Source: Elusimicrobia bacterium GWA2_66_18
Lineage (GTDB): Bacteria > Elusimicrobiota > Elusimicrobia > UBA1565 > UBA9628
Length of the DNA: 64,000 nt
Reading direction: 5' to 3'
NCBI GenBank assembly: GCA_001799675.1
Contig: MGTX01000019.1
Location: forward strand, 11,168 to 75,167
Below the pieces are notes generated by a model. That model was not told where the DNA came from, ran no database searches, and was given only the letters and a program-made list of their open reading frames with translations. Position 1 is the stretch's first letter. Every line of letters begins with the position of its first letter. This document shows, in pieces, positions 34,118-44,027 of the stretch. A program made the position numbers and the translations under genes.

Positions 34118-36754
34118 ATGGCCGACATCCGAAAGGGAGCCCGCAAAGAGACGCGTCTCGGCCCGGAGATCTTCGCCCACAAGGCGATCACCCTCTGGCT
34201 GCCGGTCCTCTATTTCCTCATCTCCTCGCTGTTTTTCCTGCGCACCTACGACTCCGCTCAGGTCAAGATCACCATGATGCAGATGGGCGGCCTGGGCCTG
34301 CTGACCCTGTGGCTGTGCCGCCTGGTCCTGGCCGGACGCAACGCATTGAACAAAGAGGACCTGATCTGCCTCTCCCCGTTTCTGGCCTACCTGTTCTACG
34401 GCATCTTCTCCTACCTGCACTCGCCATACGGCATGGCCAGCACGGACTTCTTCCTGCGCCACATGTTCTACATGATCGTGGCCCTCATCTCGATCTACGA
34501 GCTCGACGAGGCGGCGGTCCAGCGCCTGCTGAAGTGGCTGATCCTGGCGGCGTGGGTCGCCATCGGCTACGGCACCCTCCAGTTCGTGGACAACACCTGG
34601 TTCCCGCGCGGCGCGGGCAAGGGCATTGACCCCTTTGTCTGGCGCGGCGCCTTCTTGCCGCGCGTATTCTCGACCTACGGTAACCCCAACTTCTACGGCG
34701 ATTTCCTGGTCATCATGTTCCCCATCATTCTGACCCAGTTCCTGAAGACCCGGCGTTGGAGCCTGACGCCCTTGATCGCCATGCTCCTGCTCAACCTTAT
34801 CGCCACCGGCACTAAGGGCGCGTGGCTGGGATTTGCCATGGTCTGCGTCATCTTCGGCGCCATTTCCCTGGTCTACTTCAAGGATATGATCCGGTCCTAC
34901 CGCGCCAAGGTCCTTGGCGTGGCGGCCTTCTGTGCCCTGGGCTTGATCGGCTATACCGCCAAGGACCTCCAGACCCGCATCGTCTCGATCAACTTCCGCC
35001 TCTTCACCTGGGAGGCCACCTGGGAGATGATCACCACCCATCCCCTGATCGGTTCCGGCGTCGGGTCCTTCCCGCCGCTCTATCCCGCCTTCCGCCGCCC
35101 GCCCATCTTCCACATCGAGGGCAAGCACAACACCGAGACCGACCATGCCGAAGACGAGTACCTCGAGCAACTCCTGGATCACGGCATCATCGGTTTTGGG
35201 ATCTTCCTCTGGCTGGTCATCAGCTCCTTGGTCATCGGCTTGCGTTCCCTGGGACAACTGACCACGAGCCTTGCGCTCAAAGACGGGCGCCCGCCGCCGC
35301 GCGCCTTCGACCTGACGGGCCTGCTCGTCTCCTTCTGCGGGATGCTGAGCCACAATTTCTTCGATGTGAGTCTGCGCTTCGTCTCCTCGGGCGTCTACCT
35401 GGGGCTCCTGGCCGGCCTCATCGTCAACGTCGCCCGCGGTCGCGCTCTCTATGAGCGCCATACCCAGCCGGCCCCGTCCGCGTCCGGGCCGACGGCTGCG
35501 CCGGAGGAGGTCTCGACCGAGCCGCCGCTCTGGAAGACCCTGGCCGATTTCCTCATCTGGCCCACGCGCTTGGCCGCGGTCGGCGGGATCGTCTACTATG
35601 CTTTCATGATGGATTGGAGCCATCTGGGCCGCACGGTCGGCTACGGCGGCTTTTTCGGCGAGTTCGCGTCCATGCAGGGCCCCCTCTCGCGCATCCCGGG
35701 CGGCGGGGAACTCCTGCAGTGGTGGGCGGCATGGTTGGTGTTCGCCGGCTGCATGCTGAGCCTAGGCTACGCCATGATCCGGCTTTGCTTCATGTCGGAC
35801 AATCCCGTGATCCCGGCCCTCATCCTCGTCATGCTGCCCCCGCTCAACTTGTTCTGGGGCTACTTCAAGGCCGACATCCACCACAACGTCGCCATCTATT
35901 TCTCGAAGGAGCGCAATTGGGATGCGGCTGTGGCCAACTACCTCATCGTCAACCGGCTCAACCCGGACTTCGTCATGGCGAAGTACTTCCTCGGCAACGT
36001 CTTCAACGACCGCTTCAACATGACGAAGATCTCCAACTCCAAATGGGGGGACTCGGCCGACACGCCGATGGACGACTACGACCGAGCCCTTTACTGGTAC
36101 AATGAGGTGCGGCGGCTGTCTCCAAACTACGTCCAGATGCACCACCAGGTCGGCAACCTGCACCTGCGCCGCGCGCAGTGGGCGCTGGACAACAAGCGTC
36201 CCGACGAGGCGAAGAAGTACTTGGACATGGCGCTCAACCGCTACCGCCTCTACCAGGCCATCGACCCCGTCTTCCCGCCCAATTTCTACCGCATGGGCCA
36301 GGTTTATATGATGCGCCAGGAGTTCAACGAGGCCATCAAAATATACGAGGACCTCATTGCCGCCGAACAATGCCAGGTCGCGCCTTCGCTCCTGACCAAC
36401 GACTTCCTGCGCCGGACCATCCTGTCCTACCAGCAGTATACCCTGGAGGACGGCCGTTGGGTCCATCGTCACGCCCTGCCCCAACAGCCCTGGACGAAGG
36501 AGGGCGTCGAGGCCTATACGAGCCTAGCCAACGCGCATTACATGGCCGGGCATCTGGAAGAGGCCGAGAAATTCTACAAGAGGGCCCTCGCCTTCGACCC
36601 GGCCTTCGAGCAGGCCAAGCGCAACCTCGAGGTCGTCTACCGCAAGGCCCAGGCCGAGGGCCGCTTGCGCAAGGCGGCTCCGCCGGCCAAGATGCCCGGT
36701 CCCGGCGAGCCTCCGTTCACGGGCTATGAAGTCGCGCCGAAGCCGAAGAAATAG
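34118..36754 (+). CDS. O-antigen ligase/polymerase (Wzy_C) with C-terminal TPR domain
   Basis: 878 residues. The membrane part (about 1-450) has some twelve helices and the Wzy_C signature region around TYGNPNFYGDFL, GTKGAWLG, RLFTWEATWEMITTHPLIGSGVGSF and AEDEYLEQLLDHGIIGF. Two more helices lie near 485 and 530-570, then TPR-like repeats run from about 590 to 860. It would polymerise or ligate polysaccharide on the outer membrane face, the TPRs perhaps recruiting partners. The next gene starts inside its end (29-bp overlap), linking it to the TldD-like pair. Confidence 0.85.
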   Translation: MADIRKGARKETRLGPEIFAHKAITLWLPVLYFLISSLFFLRTYDSAQVKITMMQMGGLGLLTLWLCRLVLAGRNALNKEDLICLSPFLAYLFYGIFSYLHSPYGMASTDFFLRHMFYMIVALISIYELDEAAVQRLLKWLILAAWVAIGYGTLQFVDNTWFPRGAGKGIDPFVWRGAFLPRVFSTYGNPNFYGDFLVIMFPIILTQFLKTRRWSLTPLIAMLLLNLIATGTKGAWLGFAMVCVIFGAISLVYFKDMIRSYRAKVLGVAAFCALGLIGYTAKDLQTRIVSINFRLFTWEATWEMITTHPLIGSGVGSFPPLYPAFRRPPIFHIEGKHNTETDHAEDEYLEQLLDHGIIGFGIFLWLVISSLVIGLRSLGQLTTSLALKDGRPPPRAFDLTGLLVSFCGMLSHNFFDVSLRFVSSGVYLGLLAGLIVNVARGRALYERHTQPAPSASGPTAAPEEVSTEPPLWKTLADFLIWPTRLAAVGGIVYYAFMMDWSHLGRTVGYGGFFGEFASMQGPLSRIPGGGELLQWWAAWLVFAGCMLSLGYAMIRLCFMSDNPVIPALILVMLPPLNLFWGYFKADIHHNVAIYFSKERNWDAAVANYLIVNRLNPDFVMAKYFLGNVFNDRFNMTKISNSKWGDSADTPMDDYDRALYWYNEVRRLSPNYVQMHHQVGNLHLRRAQWALDNKRPDEAKKYLDMALNRYRLYQAIDPVFPPNFYRMGQVYMMRQEFNEAIKIYEDLIAAEQCQVAPSLLTNDFLRRTILSYQQYTLEDGRWVHRHALPQQPWTKEGVEAYTSLANAHYMAGHLEEAEKFYKRALAFDPAFEQAKRNLEVVYRKAQAEGRLRKAAPPAKMPGPGEPPFTGYEVAPKPKK

Positions 36755-38429
36755 CCCAGCTCCGCTCGTCTTGGCCGCGCTCCTGTGCGCGGCCGCGGCT
36801 CAGGCCGAGACCTGGGGCTCCGAGCCGACGCCGGCAGGAGAGGTCTTGAAGTCCATGGAGTCGGAGTTGGCGCGCAATCTGAGCCGCCTCAAGCAGGACC
36901 GTTTCGGTCCGCCTTACTTCTTGGCCTACCGCCTGCACGATGCGCGCCGCTATGACGTCGGCGCGTCCCTCGGCGAGTTCGTCAATGACGAGGTCGACGA
37001 CTACCGCGTCGCTTACGTCGAAGCGCGTTACGGCGGGAGCGATATCGACAACACGGACCTCAATTACCAGGGAGTCTCCGCCGCCGCGCCCGCCGACCCG
37101 GCGGTCCTCAGCCAGACCTTCTGGCAGCTGACGGACCAGGCGTACAAGGGCGCGCTTTCCGGCTGGCTCGAGAAGAAGGCCAAGCGCGCCACGGAGTTGG
37201 TGACCGACGTCCTCGACGATTTTTCCATCGAGCCCTCCACGGTCGCCGTCCTGTTCCCGGCGCCCCCCGCCCTGGACCGAGATAAGCTCAAGGGGCTGGC
37301 CCGGCGCCTGAGCGAGGTCTTCCGCGACTACCCCGAGGTGCACGAGTCCAACGCCTCCGTCACGGCTTTCTGGGCGCGGCGCTTCCTGGTGACGAGCGAG
37401 GGCACTCGCCTGCTCACGCTCGCCGAGGAGATGCCTCAGGAGGTCCGCGCTTACGCCTCCACCCGGGCGGAGGACGGCATGAAGCTGGAGGATTCCTTCA
37501 ACGTCTCGCTGCGCTCCTTCGACGATCTGCCGCCCGAGGCGGAACTCATGGCCTCCGCCCGCCGCGTGGCTTCGGAGCTCACGGCTCTGCGCCGCGCTCC
37601 CGTGCAGGATGCGGCGGCCGCCCCGGCCATCCTGGACCCGGAGATGAGCGGCGTCCTCTTCCACGAGGCGCTCGGCCACAAGCTGGAGGGCCAGCGCCAG
37701 CGCGACCCGCGCGAGAGCCAGGTCTTCCGCGATCTCCTTGGCAAGCGCATCATCCCCGATTTCCTCAGCGTCATCGACGACCCCACGCTCAAGGCCTTCC
37801 AGGGCGCGCCGCTCCACGGCTCTTACGATTTCGATTCGGAGGGTACCCCCGCGCGGAGGGCGGTCCTCGTCGAGCATGGGATTTTGCGCGAGTTCCTCAT
37901 GTCACGCTGGCCGGTGAAGGGCTTCTCCCGCGCCAACGGTCACGGCCGCTCCGATTGGCGCGCGCATCCCTCGGGGCGCATGGCCAACCTGATCGTCGAA
38001 GCCCGGGGCGCGGTCCCGCCGGCGGAGCTCGAGCGCCGCCTGCTTGAAGCGATCCTGAAGGCGGGCAAGCCCTACGGCTTCCTGCTCGTGGGCGCCTTCG
38101 GCGGGGAAAACCCCACGACGCGCGACTCGGCGCAGACCCTGGAGGTGCGGCCGCGGCTGGCCTATCGCGTGGACGCCAAGACCGGTCGCAAGACCCTCGT
38201 GCGCGGCGTCAAGCTCGTCGGCACTCCTCTCGTGGTCCTCAACCGCATCCTGGCGGCCGGCGACGATATTCGGCTCTCGAACGGTTTCCAGTGCGGCGCG
38301 GAGTCTGGCTGGGTGCCCGTCAGTCAGACCGCGCCGAGCCTGCTCCTCTCCGAGGTCGAGCTCCAGCGCCTGCCCGAGGACCGCTCGCGCCCGCCTATCC
38401 TGCCCTCGCCGCTCCATGATCGCCGCTAG
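36726..38429 (+). CDS. Secreted TldD/PmbA-family metalloprotease, metal site intact
   Basis: 567 residues. A signal peptide (hydrophobic 13-26, likely cut after AQA, residue 27) is unusual, since TldD is cytoplasmic in E. coli. The family zinc motif HEALGHK gives His313, Glu314 and His318, and Cys523 in NGFQCGAESG matches the third ligand near the C-terminus. NGHGR and GTPARRAVLVEHG segments also match the family. It should cleave peptides in the periplasm. The ATG lies inside the ligase gene, and the partner gene starts inside this one. Confidence 0.85.
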   Translation: MKSRRSRRNSPAPLVLAALLCAAAAQAETWGSEPTPAGEVLKSMESELARNLSRLKQDRFGPPYFLAYRLHDARRYDVGASLGEFVNDEVDDYRVAYVEARYGGSDIDNTDLNYQGVSAAAPADPAVLSQTFWQLTDQAYKGALSGWLEKKAKRATELVTDVLDDFSIEPSTVAVLFPAPPALDRDKLKGLARRLSEVFRDYPEVHESNASVTAFWARRFLVTSEGTRLLTLAEEMPQEVRAYASTRAEDGMKLEDSFNVSLRSFDDLPPEAELMASARRVASELTALRRAPVQDAAAAPAILDPEMSGVLFHEALGHKLEGQRQRDPRESQVFRDLLGKRIIPDFLSVIDDPTLKAFQGAPLHGSYDFDSEGTPARRAVLVEHGILREFLMSRWPVKGFSRANGHGRSDWRAHPSGRMANLIVEARGAVPPAELERRLLEAILKAGKPYGFLLVGAFGGENPTTRDSAQTLEVRPRLAYRVDAKTGRKTLVRGVKLVGTPLVVLNRILAAGDDIRLSNGFQCGAESGWVPVSQTAPSLLLSEVELQRLPEDRSRPPILPSPLHDRR

Positions 38430-40404
38430 CCTGCTTGCCGTCCTGCTGATCCCCGCCGCGGCCCACCCGGCCGCCGACGAGGCGCTCGAACGCGCGGTCG
38501 CGGCCGAGTTGGGGCGGGCCAAGCGCGAGCTCAAGGACGACGACTACCCCTCCGTCTATCATGCCGCGCTCAACGTTTGGGATTTAGACGACTGGGACCG
38601 ATGGGGGGCGATGGGGGCCACCCGGGCCGAGGCGACCATGAGCCAGCGCATTCTCCTGGCCGACCTGCGCGTGGGAAGCCCCGCCCTCGACAACCACCCC
38701 GTCACCCCAAGGACGGAATACCTGGGCACGCCGGTTTCCCTGGAGAGCGACGAGTTCGCCTTGCGCCACGCGCTCTGGCGCGTGCTCGACGGGGCCTACA
38801 AGACGGCCAGCGCCGACTACCTGCGCAAGCAGGCCCAGTTGGTCATGCGCGGCAAGGCGGAGTACGACACCGATGACCTGGCTCCCGAGCCTCCGCTTGA
38901 TCGGCGGGCCCCCCGCCCGGCCTCGTCCTGGGACTTGGACCGTCTGCGGCGCCTGGAGGACGCCATCGCCGAGCCTTTCTCGCGCGCGCCCTGGCTCCTG
39001 CACGCCGAGTCCCACGCGGCCCTGCGCCGGCTGTGGATCCGCCGCCGCGACACCGACGGCGTCTCCGTGGACAAGTCCGAGGACTGGGCGCGCGTGGAAG
39101 TGGAGGCTGCGGCCCTGTCGCCGGACGGCCTGCGCCAGAGCGTGGCCCGCGAGTTCTACGCGCGCGTCCCGGCGGACCTGCCCTCTGAGGATGAATTGCG
39201 CCGCGCGGCGGGCGACCTGCTCAAGGACCTGGAGGAACTATGCGTGGCGCTCACCACCTCGCCCTTCAACGCCCCGGCTCTGGTGGACCCTTCGGTCTCC
39301 GCGGCTCTGGTCCTGGCCCTGGGACAGCGCCTGTCCGGCGAGGAACAACGCAACCCGGCGGGCGCCCAGACCTTCCGCGGTCGCGTCGGCGAGAAGATCC
39401 TGCCGGTCGGCCTCGGCATCGTCGATGACCCGACCCAAGCCTCGCTGGGCGTCCGACCGCTCTTCGGCCGCTACGAGTATGACGACCAGGGCGTGCCCGC
39501 GCGGCGTACGGTCCTGGTGGAGCGCGGCGTGCTCAAGGGTTTCCTCCTTTCGCGCTATCCGGTCAAGGGGTTCGGGCGCTCCAACGGCCACGGCCGCGCG
39601 CCGGTGGGTCAGATGCCGGCCGGCATGCCGGGCAACCTATTCCTGAGCGTCTCCGAGCCGCGCAAGGTCTCGGATCTTCTGGAGCGGTTGCGCGAGGAAT
39701 GCCGCCGCGCCGGCAAGCCCTACGGCTTGTGGGTTCGCAAACTGCGCGCCTACGCCCAGCAGCAGGGCGGCGGCGTCCAGGGCTCGATTCGCTTCATGGC
39801 CCAGGTTTTTCTCGTCGAGGCGGAGACCGGCAAGGTCGTGCGCGCTCGCGACCTGGATCTCGTCGGCACGCCGCTGGTCATGGCAGGGAGCATCCTGGCG
39901 GCGGGCGACGATACCGCGGTCAACGAGTTCAACCCGGGCGCGCCCGTCGCGGTGGCGGCCCCCAGCCTCCTGCTCACCGACGCCGAACTGCAGCGCTCGG
40001 AATCCAAGCCGGAGAAGGCCCCCATCCTGCCGCCTCCTCCTGTCGCCGCGGCCGAGCCGGCCGCGGCTCCGCGCTCGCGCCGCGGCCCGCCGTTCGTCCC
40101 GGTCGTGCCCTGCGTCGAGGTCGTGCGCTATTTCGTCCGCGGACGGGTCATGCCGCTGGAGGGCCTGGCGGTGACGGGGGTGGAGGCATGGCGCCAGATT
40201 CTCACGCCGACGGGACTGGCCGTGGACGCCAAGGTCTCCGGCCCCAATCTGCTGTCGGCGGGCGCGGCCGTGCGCCGGGTGGACGCCGCGATGGAAGCCG
40301 CCACGGCAGGCAAGCACGAGAGGAGCGTTCTCGTGAACATGATGACGCGCGCCGTCTATCGCGCCCGCTACGGCGACGGCTGGCCGGACCGGTTGCCGCG
40401 ATGA
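38416..40404 (+). CDS. Secreted TldE-like pseudoprotease paired with the TldD homologue
   Basis: 662 residues with a short signal peptide (about 1-20). It is paralogous to its neighbour (PARRTVLVERGVLKGFLLSRYPVKGFGRSNGHGR), but the zinc motif aligned to HEALGH reads L-ALGQ, losing both His, Glu and one residue, and the Cys region reads NPGAP. In E. coli, TldE likewise lacks the metal site and forms a heterodimer with TldD. A Pro/Ala-rich linker near 545-575 leads to an added C-terminal domain of about 90 residues of unknown role. It overlaps the gene before by 14 bp. Confidence 0.85.
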   Translation: MIAASLLAVLLIPAAAHPAADEALERAVAAELGRAKRELKDDDYPSVYHAALNVWDLDDWDRWGAMGATRAEATMSQRILLADLRVGSPALDNHPVTPRTEYLGTPVSLESDEFALRHALWRVLDGAYKTASADYLRKQAQLVMRGKAEYDTDDLAPEPPLDRRAPRPASSWDLDRLRRLEDAIAEPFSRAPWLLHAESHAALRRLWIRRRDTDGVSVDKSEDWARVEVEAAALSPDGLRQSVAREFYARVPADLPSEDELRRAAGDLLKDLEELCVALTTSPFNAPALVDPSVSAALVLALGQRLSGEEQRNPAGAQTFRGRVGEKILPVGLGIVDDPTQASLGVRPLFGRYEYDDQGVPARRTVLVERGVLKGFLLSRYPVKGFGRSNGHGRAPVGQMPAGMPGNLFLSVSEPRKVSDLLERLREECRRAGKPYGLWVRKLRAYAQQQGGGVQGSIRFMAQVFLVEAETGKVVRARDLDLVGTPLVMAGSILAAGDDTAVNEFNPGAPVAVAAPSLLLTDAELQRSESKPEKAPILPPPPVAAAEPAAAPRSRRGPPFVPVVPCVEVVRYFVRGRVMPLEGLAVTGVEAWRQILTPTGLAVDAKVSGPNLLSAGAAVRRVDAAMEAATAGKHERSVLVNMMTRAVYRARYGDGWPDRLPR

Positions 40405-41387
40405 GCGCGCCCCGTTTCACCGTCGTGATCCCGACCTACAACCGCTCCGCGTCCACTGCGGCGGCGATCCGTTCGGTGCTCATCCAGACCGACGCCCGCT
40501 GGGAATGCCTGGTGGTCGACGACGGTTCGACCGACGACACGCGCGCGGTCCTCTCGACGATCGTGGATCCGCGCGTGCATTTTATCTGGAATGAGAAGAA
40601 CCGGGGCCAGCATGCCTGCCGCAACCAGGCGATCCGCGCGGCGAAGGGAGAGTGGATCGCCTTCCTCGACTCCGACGACCTCTTCCTGCCGGGGCGTCTG
40701 GAGGCTCTGTCTTGCGCCGCCGCGTTGCGCCCCACCGTCGGCTTCTGGTTTACCAACGCCTACCGCCACCGTTGGGGCCGCCTTATCGGGCTCCTTTTCG
40801 ATCCTTCGCGGGAGATCTCGGAGGGGAAGGTCCCAGGCTGGTACGCCGTCGGCGACCTCTGGCTGCCGTACGTGACGACCATGGTCTGCGTGCGTAAGTC
40901 GGCCTTCGAGGATACGGGCTTCTTCCGCGAGGATTTACGCATCCTGGAGGACACGGAGCTTTACGCGCGGATGTTCAAGGGCGGCCTTGAGGTGGGGGTC
41001 CTGCGCGAGCCGTTGGCGGTGCGCTTCATACACGAGGGCCAGATCACGCGCGATCATGAACGCGATTTCTCGGAATCCATGGAGGCGCTCAGAAACTCTT
41101 GCGCTCCGCCCAAGATCGCAGCCGCGCATCGCGCGCGCGTGGCTCGCGAGGTGGCGGGCTATCTTTTGAAGTCGCTCAAGCCCGCCCAGTCGCGCGCCCT
41201 GCTGGAGAAGGAGCTCGGAGCCGCCGCGCGCGGCACGGCGCTCTGGTGGGCCACTTTCCTGCCGTCGTCCTTGCTGGCCCCTGTTCGCGCCGCGCGCGAG
41301 GCGTGCCTGCGCTTGCGCTGGGGAGCCTTCGCCCCCGCGGAGTACCGGGAAACGTCCTTGATCGTGGACTCACTGCTCAACGGCTGA
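40401..41387 (+). CDS. GT2-family glycosyltransferase
   Basis: 328 residues. FTVVIPTYNRSASTAAAIRSVL, VVDDGSTDDT and FLDSDDLFLPGRLE (DXD) define a GT2 domain, with ILEDTELYARMF as the likely acceptor/base region. The C-terminus is basic with a hydrophobic patch (WWATFLPSSLLAPV). It starts at ATGA on the pseudoprotease stop and ends the operon begun at 34118. Its 3' end overlaps the convergent glutathione peroxidase gene by 18 bp. Confidence 0.86.
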   Translation: MSAPRFTVVIPTYNRSASTAAAIRSVLIQTDARWECLVVDDGSTDDTRAVLSTIVDPRVHFIWNEKNRGQHACRNQAIRAAKGEWIAFLDSDDLFLPGRLEALSCAAALRPTVGFWFTNAYRHRWGRLIGLLFDPSREISEGKVPGWYAVGDLWLPYVTTMVCVRKSAFEDTGFFREDLRILEDTELYARMFKGGLEVGVLREPLAVRFIHEGQITRDHERDFSESMEALRNSCAPPKIAAAHRARVAREVAGYLLKSLKPAQSRALLEKELGAAARGTALWWATFLPSSLLAPVRAAREACLRLRWGAFAPAEYRETSLIVDSLLNG

Positions 41388-42054: not shown

Positions 42055-42627
42055 GTGACCCGTCTTCAGGCCCGCCGCCGCGCCGTCTTCCTCGATCGGG
42101 ACGGAGTCCTCGTGCGCGAGGTGGACTATCTCGGCCATGTCGACCGTCTGGCGGTCATGCCGGGAGCCGCGGCGGCGATGAAGGCCCTGCGCGCCGCGGG
42201 CTTCAAGGTCGTGGTCGCGACCAACCAGTCCGGCGTGGCCCGCGGCTACTTCAGCCTCAACCGCTTGCGCGAGATCCACCGCGAGCTCAAGCGCCGCCTG
42301 GCGCGGTCCGGCGCCAAATGGGACGCGCTCTACTTCTCGCCCCACGGCCCGGACAGCGGCCATTCCTGGCGCAAGCCGGGCATCGGCATGCTCCAGGCCG
42401 CGTGCCGCCGCTTCCGACTCGATTTGCGCGCCTGCTACTTCATCGGAGATTCCACTGCCGACGTCCTCTGCGCGCGCCGGGCGGGCTGCGTGCCGGTGCT
42501 GGTCCGCACGGGCAAGGGCGGCCGCGACGGCAAGTACCGCGCCCGGCCCGAGAAGACCTGCCGCGACCTGGCCGCGGCCGCGCGCTGGATACTGGCGCGC
42601 GAGAAGACGCGTCATAAGTGGGTATAA
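42055..42627 (+). CDS. HAD-IIIA phosphatase, GmhB/HisB-N-like, without the zinc cysteines
   Basis: 190 residues. The HAD nucleophile motif is FLDRDGVL (Asp14, Asp16), with VVATNQSGVARGYFS, RKPGIGML and FIGDSTADVLCARRAG completing the fold. GmhB removes the 7-phosphate from heptose bisphosphate for LPS core or S-layer glycans. In GmhB four ligands (C-x-H and C-x-C before RKP) hold zinc; here they read SPH and HSW, so the site is lost. Other heptose genes are not in the window, so the substrate is uncertain. Confidence 0.75.
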   Translation: MTRLQARRRAVFLDRDGVLVREVDYLGHVDRLAVMPGAAAAMKALRAAGFKVVVATNQSGVARGYFSLNRLREIHRELKRRLARSGAKWDALYFSPHGPDSGHSWRKPGIGMLQAACRRFRLDLRACYFIGDSTADVLCARRAGCVPVLVRTGKGGRDGKYRARPEKTCRDLAAAARWILAREKTRHKWV

Positions 42628-42628
42628 T
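42623..42628 (+). promoter_or_regulatory. Candidate -10 box for the POT transporter
   Basis: Consensus TATAAT overlapping the gmhB-like stop codon, 7 nt before the ATG at 42636. It decides the transporter's start: the in-frame ATG at 42627 overlaps the box itself. Confidence 0.5.
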
Positions 42629-42635
42629 GCCCGTC

Positions 42636-44027
42636 ATGAACGCCAAAGCGACGACGGCGACGGGAGAGTGGTTCGGGCACCCCAAGGGCCTCTACGTCCT
42701 TTTCTTTACCGAGATGTGGGAGCGCTTCTCCTACTACGGCATGCGTTCCCTGCTCGTCCTCTACATGGCTAAATACCTCATCAATAAGGCGGACAACGGC
42801 CTGGACGTCCTCGGCTACGGCGCCATCCGGCATTTCGTCCAGTGGTTCGTCGGCCTCTTCGGCATGCGCGGCGAGCTCTCGGTCCAGGCGTTTTCCTCCC
42901 AGATCTACGGCCTCTACACCGGCTTCGTCTACTTCACGCCTTTCTTCGGCGGAATCCTCGCCGACAAAGTCTTCGGCCAGCGCAAGACCGTCTATATCGG
43001 CGCCGTGCTGATGGCCATCGGCCACTTCCTAATGGCCTCCGAACGCCTGTTCTTCGCCGCCCTGCTGTTCCTGATCCTGGGCAACGGCTGCTTCAAGCCG
43101 AACATCTCGACCCAGGTCGGCAACCTCTATCCGGAAGGAGATCATCGCCGGGACTCCGCCTTCACCATCTTCTACATGGGCATCAACCTGGGCGCGATGT
43201 TCTCGCCGCTCGTCTGCGGCACGCTCGGCCAGAAGGTCGGCTGGCATTGGGGCTTCGGCGCGGCCGGCGTGGGAATGATCATCGGCCTGTGCGTTTACTA
43301 CTTCGGCAAGCATCTTCTCCCGCCGGACCGCATCATGAAGAAGGCCGCCGCCCATGAGGAGGCGGTCGATCATGCGATCACCCCGACCGAGTGGAAGGCC
43401 ATCGGAGCGCTCGTCTTCCTGTGCATGGTCAACATCGTTTTCTGGGCCGTTTACGAGCAGCAGGGCAATACCCTCCAGCTCTGGGCCGATCAGAACACGC
43501 GCTGGCGGTTCTTCGGCTTCAACGTCCCATCGAGCTGGTATCAGGTCTTCAATCCCGCGTTCATCGTCATCTTCGCGCCGTTGATGGACATGTTCTGGGG
43601 CTGGCAGGATAAGCGGGGCCGGGAGCCCTCCAGCGTCACCAAGATGGGCATCGGCTGCATCCTGCTGGGGGGCGCTTTCATCATCATGATCGCCGCCTCG
43701 AAGGCGGTGGGCCCGACGGAGCAGGGAAGTCTCCTCTGGCTCGTGACGACGACCTGGCTCTTCACGATGGGCGAGCTCTACCTCTCGCCGATCGGCCTGT
43801 CTCTGGTGACCAAGGTCGCCCCGGCCCGGATGGTGTCCATGCTCATGGGCATGTGGTTCTTGTCCAGCTTCTTCGGGAACTATCTTTCGGGCTTCATCGG
43901 AGGGTTCTATGAGACGATGACCAAGGATGCGTTCTTCACGCTCCTGATGGCGCTCGGAGTGGGCGCCGGCCTCATCTTCTTCGCGGCCAACAAGCCCTTG
44001 CGCAAGATCATCGGCCACGGAGTCTAG
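42636..44027 (+). CDS. POT/PTR-family proton-dependent peptide transporter
   Basis: 463 residues, about 12-14 helices. The family signature EMWERFSYYGMRSLL (E-x-x-ER-F-x-YYG) is in the first helix, followed by FGQRKTVYIGA and the second signature region FTIFYMGINLGAMFSPLVCG. It imports di- and tripeptides with protons at the inner membrane. Peptide uptake could reuse products of the secreted TldD-like protease 5 kb away, but they are in different operons. ATG 42636 is chosen from the upstream TATAAT; ATG 42627 and GTG 42618 are in frame. Confidence 0.9.
   Translation: MNAKATTATGEWFGHPKGLYVLFFTEMWERFSYYGMRSLLVLYMAKYLINKADNGLDVLGYGAIRHFVQWFVGLFGMRGELSVQAFSSQIYGLYTGFVYFTPFFGGILADKVFGQRKTVYIGAVLMAIGHFLMASERLFFAALLFLILGNGCFKPNISTQVGNLYPEGDHRRDSAFTIFYMGINLGAMFSPLVCGTLGQKVGWHWGFGAAGVGMIIGLCVYYFGKHLLPPDRIMKKAAAHEEAVDHAITPTEWKAIGALVFLCMVNIVFWAVYEQQGNTLQLWADQNTRWRFFGFNVPSSWYQVFNPAFIVIFAPLMDMFWGWQDKRGREPSSVTKMGIGCILLGGAFIIMIAASKAVGPTEQGSLLWLVTTTWLFTMGELYLSPIGLSLVTKVAPARMVSMLMGMWFLSSFFGNYLSGFIGGFYETMTKDAFFTLLMALGVGAGLIFFAANKPLRKIIGHGV

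Follow-up and report, generated by a model that had tools for sequence, protein, structure and literature searches.

The window, as the whole 64-kb stretch of DNA analyzed is termed here, contains a same-strand quartet of genes in which each start overlaps the preceding end: an O-antigen-ligase-like gene, two TldD-like genes (A and B) and a family-2 glycosyltransferase (GT2) gene. The overlaps lie at 36726-36754 (Wzy-TPR/A), 38416-38429 (A/B) and 40401-40404 (B/GT2, ATGA), and the preliminary description of two neighboring, overlapping TldD-like genes with signal peptides was exact in its coordinates and overlaps. The features are as follows.

34118-36754, + strand: O-antigen-ligase-like membrane protein of the Wzy_C type, ending in TPRs (PF04932, E=6e-16, and TPR matches)
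36726-38429, + strand: A, exported TldD-like active subunit, 567 aa (PF19289)
36726-36806, + strand: signal peptide of A, with a likely cleavage site following AQA (residue 27), from hydrophobicity and an AxA heuristic with cytoplasmic controls
37662-37679, + strand: HEALGH, the HExxxH metal site of A (H313-H318), invariant in 52 relatives
38292-38294, + strand: Cys523, the predicted third metal ligand of A, invariant in 52 relatives and aligned with Cys454 of E. coli TldD
38416-40404, + strand: B, exported TldD-like inactive partner, 662 aa (PF19289)
38416-38475, + strand: signal peptide of B, from the heuristic, end approximate
39313-39327, + strand: LALGQ, the degenerate metal-site motif of B (residues 300-304), from the match of alignment columns
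40036-40404, + strand: Pro-rich linker and extra small alpha/beta domain of B, from the AlphaFold model
40401-41387, + strand: family-2 glycosyltransferase, final gene of the overlapping run (PF00535, E=1.7e-32)

Both proteins match the third PmbA_TldD domain of Pfam (PF19289, cut-off 22 bits), A with E=1.2e-28 (100 bits) and B with E=2.2e-25 (90 bits), and a search of the PDB with A returned E. coli TldD at 2e-22. The AlphaFold models are of high confidence (pLDDT 91.3 for A and 91.8 for B), and their significant structural matches are TldD/TldE entries only, with E. coli TldD at the top for both; the best match in each case is TldD 5njf_A, with a TM-score by target length of 0.80 for A (Foldseek E=1e-34) and 0.75 for B (E=4e-27). 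The first two Pfam domains, PF01523 and PF19290, are absent from A and B, though the window genome's own canonical TldD and both E. coli proteins, TldD and TldE, have them. This absence is attributed to divergence in sequence, as the TldD fold is kept over the whole chain in the models; the N-terminal half therefore retains the fold with a sequence beyond the reach of Pfam. As judged from the PF19289 matches and the models, A and B belong to the TldD/TldE superfamily and have the M103 fold.

The full metal site ascribed to A in the preliminary description (His313, Glu314, His318 and Cys523) is indeed retained, all four residues being unchanged across 52 relatives. Glu321 and Arg418 are likewise invariant in these relatives and align with Glu270 and Arg362 of E. 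coli TldD, while the residues of the TldD Lys456-Asp272 salt bridge are not conserved in A; the roles of the E. coli active-site and salt-bridge residues are taken from PMC5810440. B was said to be devoid of every metal ligand, and at the metal-site columns of A it has L-ALGQ and no Cys, an absence shared by every partner protein. Across 64 Elusimicrobiota loci, HExxxH and the Cys occur in every A and in no partner B, so that the active/inactive pattern recurs at each locus holding both genes and lies far beyond chance. The Pro-rich linker and additional domain noted earlier in B are real as well: residues 566-652 (window 40111-40371) form a small alpha/beta unit, confidently folded in the AlphaFold model with a pLDDT of about 95, for which no Pfam family was matched and the structural matches are weak and ferredoxin/PII-like.

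A Sec-type, export-signal-like N-terminus is present in 51 of 52 A and 47 of 48 B proteins (98 of the 100 aligned) compared to none of 33 cytoplasmic TldD/TldE proteins, scored with a hydrophobicity heuristic and an internal cytoplasmic control rather than with SignalP. The two proteins that failed have unusually long N-termini, and their start codons are doubtful. The n-region of B in the window contains no Lys or Arg. Among the 100 exported-family proteins, a single A and a single B carry a lipobox-like motif, and none showed a Tat motif.

The preliminary observation is thus borne out, and by more than it claimed: the exported active/inactive TldD-like pair is a conserved family rather than a local oddity. 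Matches to A, of any TldD kind, are found in 239 of the 341 genomes of the phylum, and the exported family itself falls into two types. Type I, which resembles the window, occurs in families f1, f2, f12, f14 and f15, and in f6 as A alone; type II is found in part of each of f1, f2, f3 and f15 and at the sampled loci of f7 and f8. The extra domain is restricted to B of the window genus and of a few other genera, and only part of the type I B proteins have it. Outside f6, B follows A on the same strand at every locus with enough downstream sequence (including that of genome G215), mostly overlapping it or at a distance of up to some 20 nt; at some type I loci, one to three genes intervene. A methyltransferase-like gene, mostly accompanied by an ArnT-like glycosyltransferase, lies between A and B at six loci (L042, L047, L048, L050-L052), where the overlap is broken. 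Five f6 loci (L066, L067, L033, L035 and L036) encode an exported A with FolD-/MetF-like neighbors and no B found. The pairing and the signal peptides are both conserved in homologs, the point on which the preliminary description was to stand or fall, save for the lone A of f6. At the other extreme, the f7 genomes, many of which are 97–99% complete at about 1.5 Mb, have lost canonical TldD/TldE and hold the exported pair only. The pair is missing from most congeners of the window genome and is therefore dispensable.

The closest relatives in named organisms are Elusimicrobia, in an all-genome scan with a single query sequence that reached 20 close relatives. Searches of plasmids for relatives outside the phylum gave canonical-type, C-terminal matches only, and those of viral contigs gave none. 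Secreted TldD-like proteins of a similar kind may also be present in Myxococcota and Acidobacteriota.

TldD/TldE is a cytoplasmic enzyme whose inactive half is required for activity and is poorly understood. The E. coli proteins form a hollow heterodimer with metal only in TldD; entry is limited to unfolded chains, led by the N-terminus, and the products let out are short peptides (PMC5810440; see PMC10885120 for a review). In comparing A/B to E. coli TldD/TldE (PmbA; M103, PDB 5nj5 and 5njf), the fold is held in common, as is the layout of an active and an inactive protein with HExxxH and a distant Cys in one subunit only; however, A and B are exported, are about 90 aa longer, have N-terminal domains unmatched by Pfam and are encoded by adjacent genes, where those of E. 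coli are unlinked, and B is nearer to A than to TldE. Adjacent active and inactive genes are also seen in cytoplasmic pairs, namely on a Deinococcus plasmid (L143) and as extra pairs in f8 and f9, but these have no signal peptides, and in the tree they fall in with the canonical sets, active and inactive. LmbIH/LmbQ and CcbIH/CcbQ of the lincosamide clusters likewise form a PmbA_TldD superfamily pair within a biosynthetic cluster; they are set apart from A/B by description, belonging to a different pathway and with no export reported in the available part of PMC4351081. A literature search found no paper on an exported TldD.

The reading favored here, to which a probability of roughly 0.5 is assigned, is that A and B together make up, one subunit each, an exported metallopeptidase of the TldD family (MEROPS M103) that would trim unfolded peptides in the envelope, with B as a structural pseudo-subunit, and that the pair is not a dedicated part of O-antigen assembly. 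Since A has the same fold and metal site as E. coli TldD, it would be expected to do the cutting, and B to complete the shell. By homology with E. coli TldD/TldE (PMC5810440), A would bind Zn or Fe via His313, His318 and Cys523, with Glu314 as the catalytic base, and would clip short pieces from the N-terminus of unfolded peptides fed into the hollow dimer, while B would not cut. Located in the periplasm or outside the cell, the pair may act as a general trimmer that serves in unfolded-peptide clean-up and amino-acid supply, and its substrates are likely unfolded or released peptides. A general role is indicated since the genes neighboring the pair differ between lineages. The retention of this pair alone in f7 also speaks for the favored reading, whereas the lone A of f6, the unconserved salt bridge and the lack of the pair in most congeners speak against it.

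These neighbors also bear on the proposal of the preliminary description that the pair is tied to surface-polymer assembly. In f1, Wzy-TPR immediately precedes A in 17 of the 19 pair-bearing genomes that could be tested and lies 5.6–10 kb away in the other two, and glycan genes lie between A and B in several relatives, which would suit a dedicated factor processing a peptide, glycopeptide or regulator of the Wzy-type ligase system. However, 43 of 44 f1 genomes have the ligase gene, among them 13 congeners that lack the pair; completeness is 90% or more in seven of these 13, while some are incomplete. A natural empty version of the operon even exists in genome G201 (L157, 1296-7940), in which the order sdr-gt-pmt-Wzy-GT2 is kept and exactly A and B are missing. 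Type II loci, and type I loci of families other than f1, show no glycan link; pairs elsewhere adjoin FolD-, MetF-, PanE-, xanthine-dehydrogenase- or CsgG-like genes, folate and pantothenate genes among them, each specific to a lineage (the FolD, MetF, PanE and xanthine-dehydrogenase names, unlike CsgG, come from reading the sequences and not from a family search), and no neighbor was found to be conserved outside f1 in the lineages compared. With the ligase often found without the pair and the neighbors varying, the operon is therefore a lineage-specific home and not proof of a shared pathway, possibly adopted for co-expression with envelope genes, and the Wzy_C/TPR protein is the upstream neighbor of A but no obligate partner. 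The adjacency thus stands within f1, a strict functional tie to the ligase is weakened by the genomes that have the ligase alone, and a dedicated surface-polymer role is considered unlikely. The O-antigen-ligase neighborhood is a tempting false lead that does not define the pair.

The A protein of f6 is a natural A-only form, and B is not always needed. This fits a reading in which A acts as a homodimer or alone and B has a non-catalytic role of its own, such as binding or inhibition, for which an active Sulfolobus TldD homodimer, cited in PMC5810440, could serve as precedent. The tight coupling of the A and B genes in all other families and the need of the E. coli enzyme for both subunits (PMC5810440) speak against it, and its chance is judged to be small. 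Slimmer still is the chance that the target is a sugar or small molecule instead of peptides, with the enzyme working as an amide hydrolase or N-deacetylase; the superfamily has reported N-deacetylases (as stated in a title cited in PMC10885120), its lincosamide-cluster members LmbIH/LmbQ are described in PMC4351081, and the window pair sits amid glycan genes, yet no small-molecule pathway is common to the other lineages and the active-site ligands of A are those of the peptidase TldD. That canonical TldD and TldE were moved to the periplasm as a pair, as first proposed from the identical active/inactive layout, is ruled out for practical purposes by the tree test below and by the unlinked, unexported TldD (contig 26) and TldE (contig 34) that remain in the window genome, although the export and the layout themselves stand.

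The exported family is separate from both TldD and TldE in trees of 145 and 95 proteins and forms one clade with 100/100 support in the latter. Forcing B together with TldE in a 57-protein set gave a tree 172 log units worse (AU p=2.8e-78). B did not group with TldE, and is no TldE ortholog; rejection of this tree means that the metal site was lost in B and in TldE on separate occasions. A, not TldE, is the closer kin of B, and A and B descend from one exported lineage separate from TldE. In the best tree, type I B is sister to type I A and not to type II B (98/97), which would mean two independent metal-site losses within the exported family. A tree with one origin for every B also survives the AU test (p=0.21), and the two-loss topology could be imitated by gene conversion between A1 and B1. 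In its fullest form, the proposal is of an exported family that gained a dead partner independently of TldE, twice by the best tree, and works as a periplasmic "pencil sharpener" that is the sole TldD-type enzyme in the small-genome f7; this is offered tentatively, at somewhat less than even odds.

If the favored reading is true, the exported pair would add a new peptidase type to the bacterial envelope, and a re-evolved active-plus-dead family would offer a test of why dimers of this kind require a dead subunit. Elusimicrobiota is a little-studied phylum in which many members export a TldD relative together with a dead sister protein. Adjacent active/inactive TldD-like/TldE-like pairs without signal peptides are found as well (L101-L105, L111, L112, L117, L119 and L120); these extra pairs belong to f8, f9 and genome G213, and some genomes reach 8–10 PF19289 proteins. 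Further along the window, following the glycan operon, lies a POT peptide transporter-like gene (42618-44027, named from its sequence), which has counterparts of 74–81% identity in pair-bearing close relatives, while congeners without the pair have, near this position, homologs of only 23–24%.
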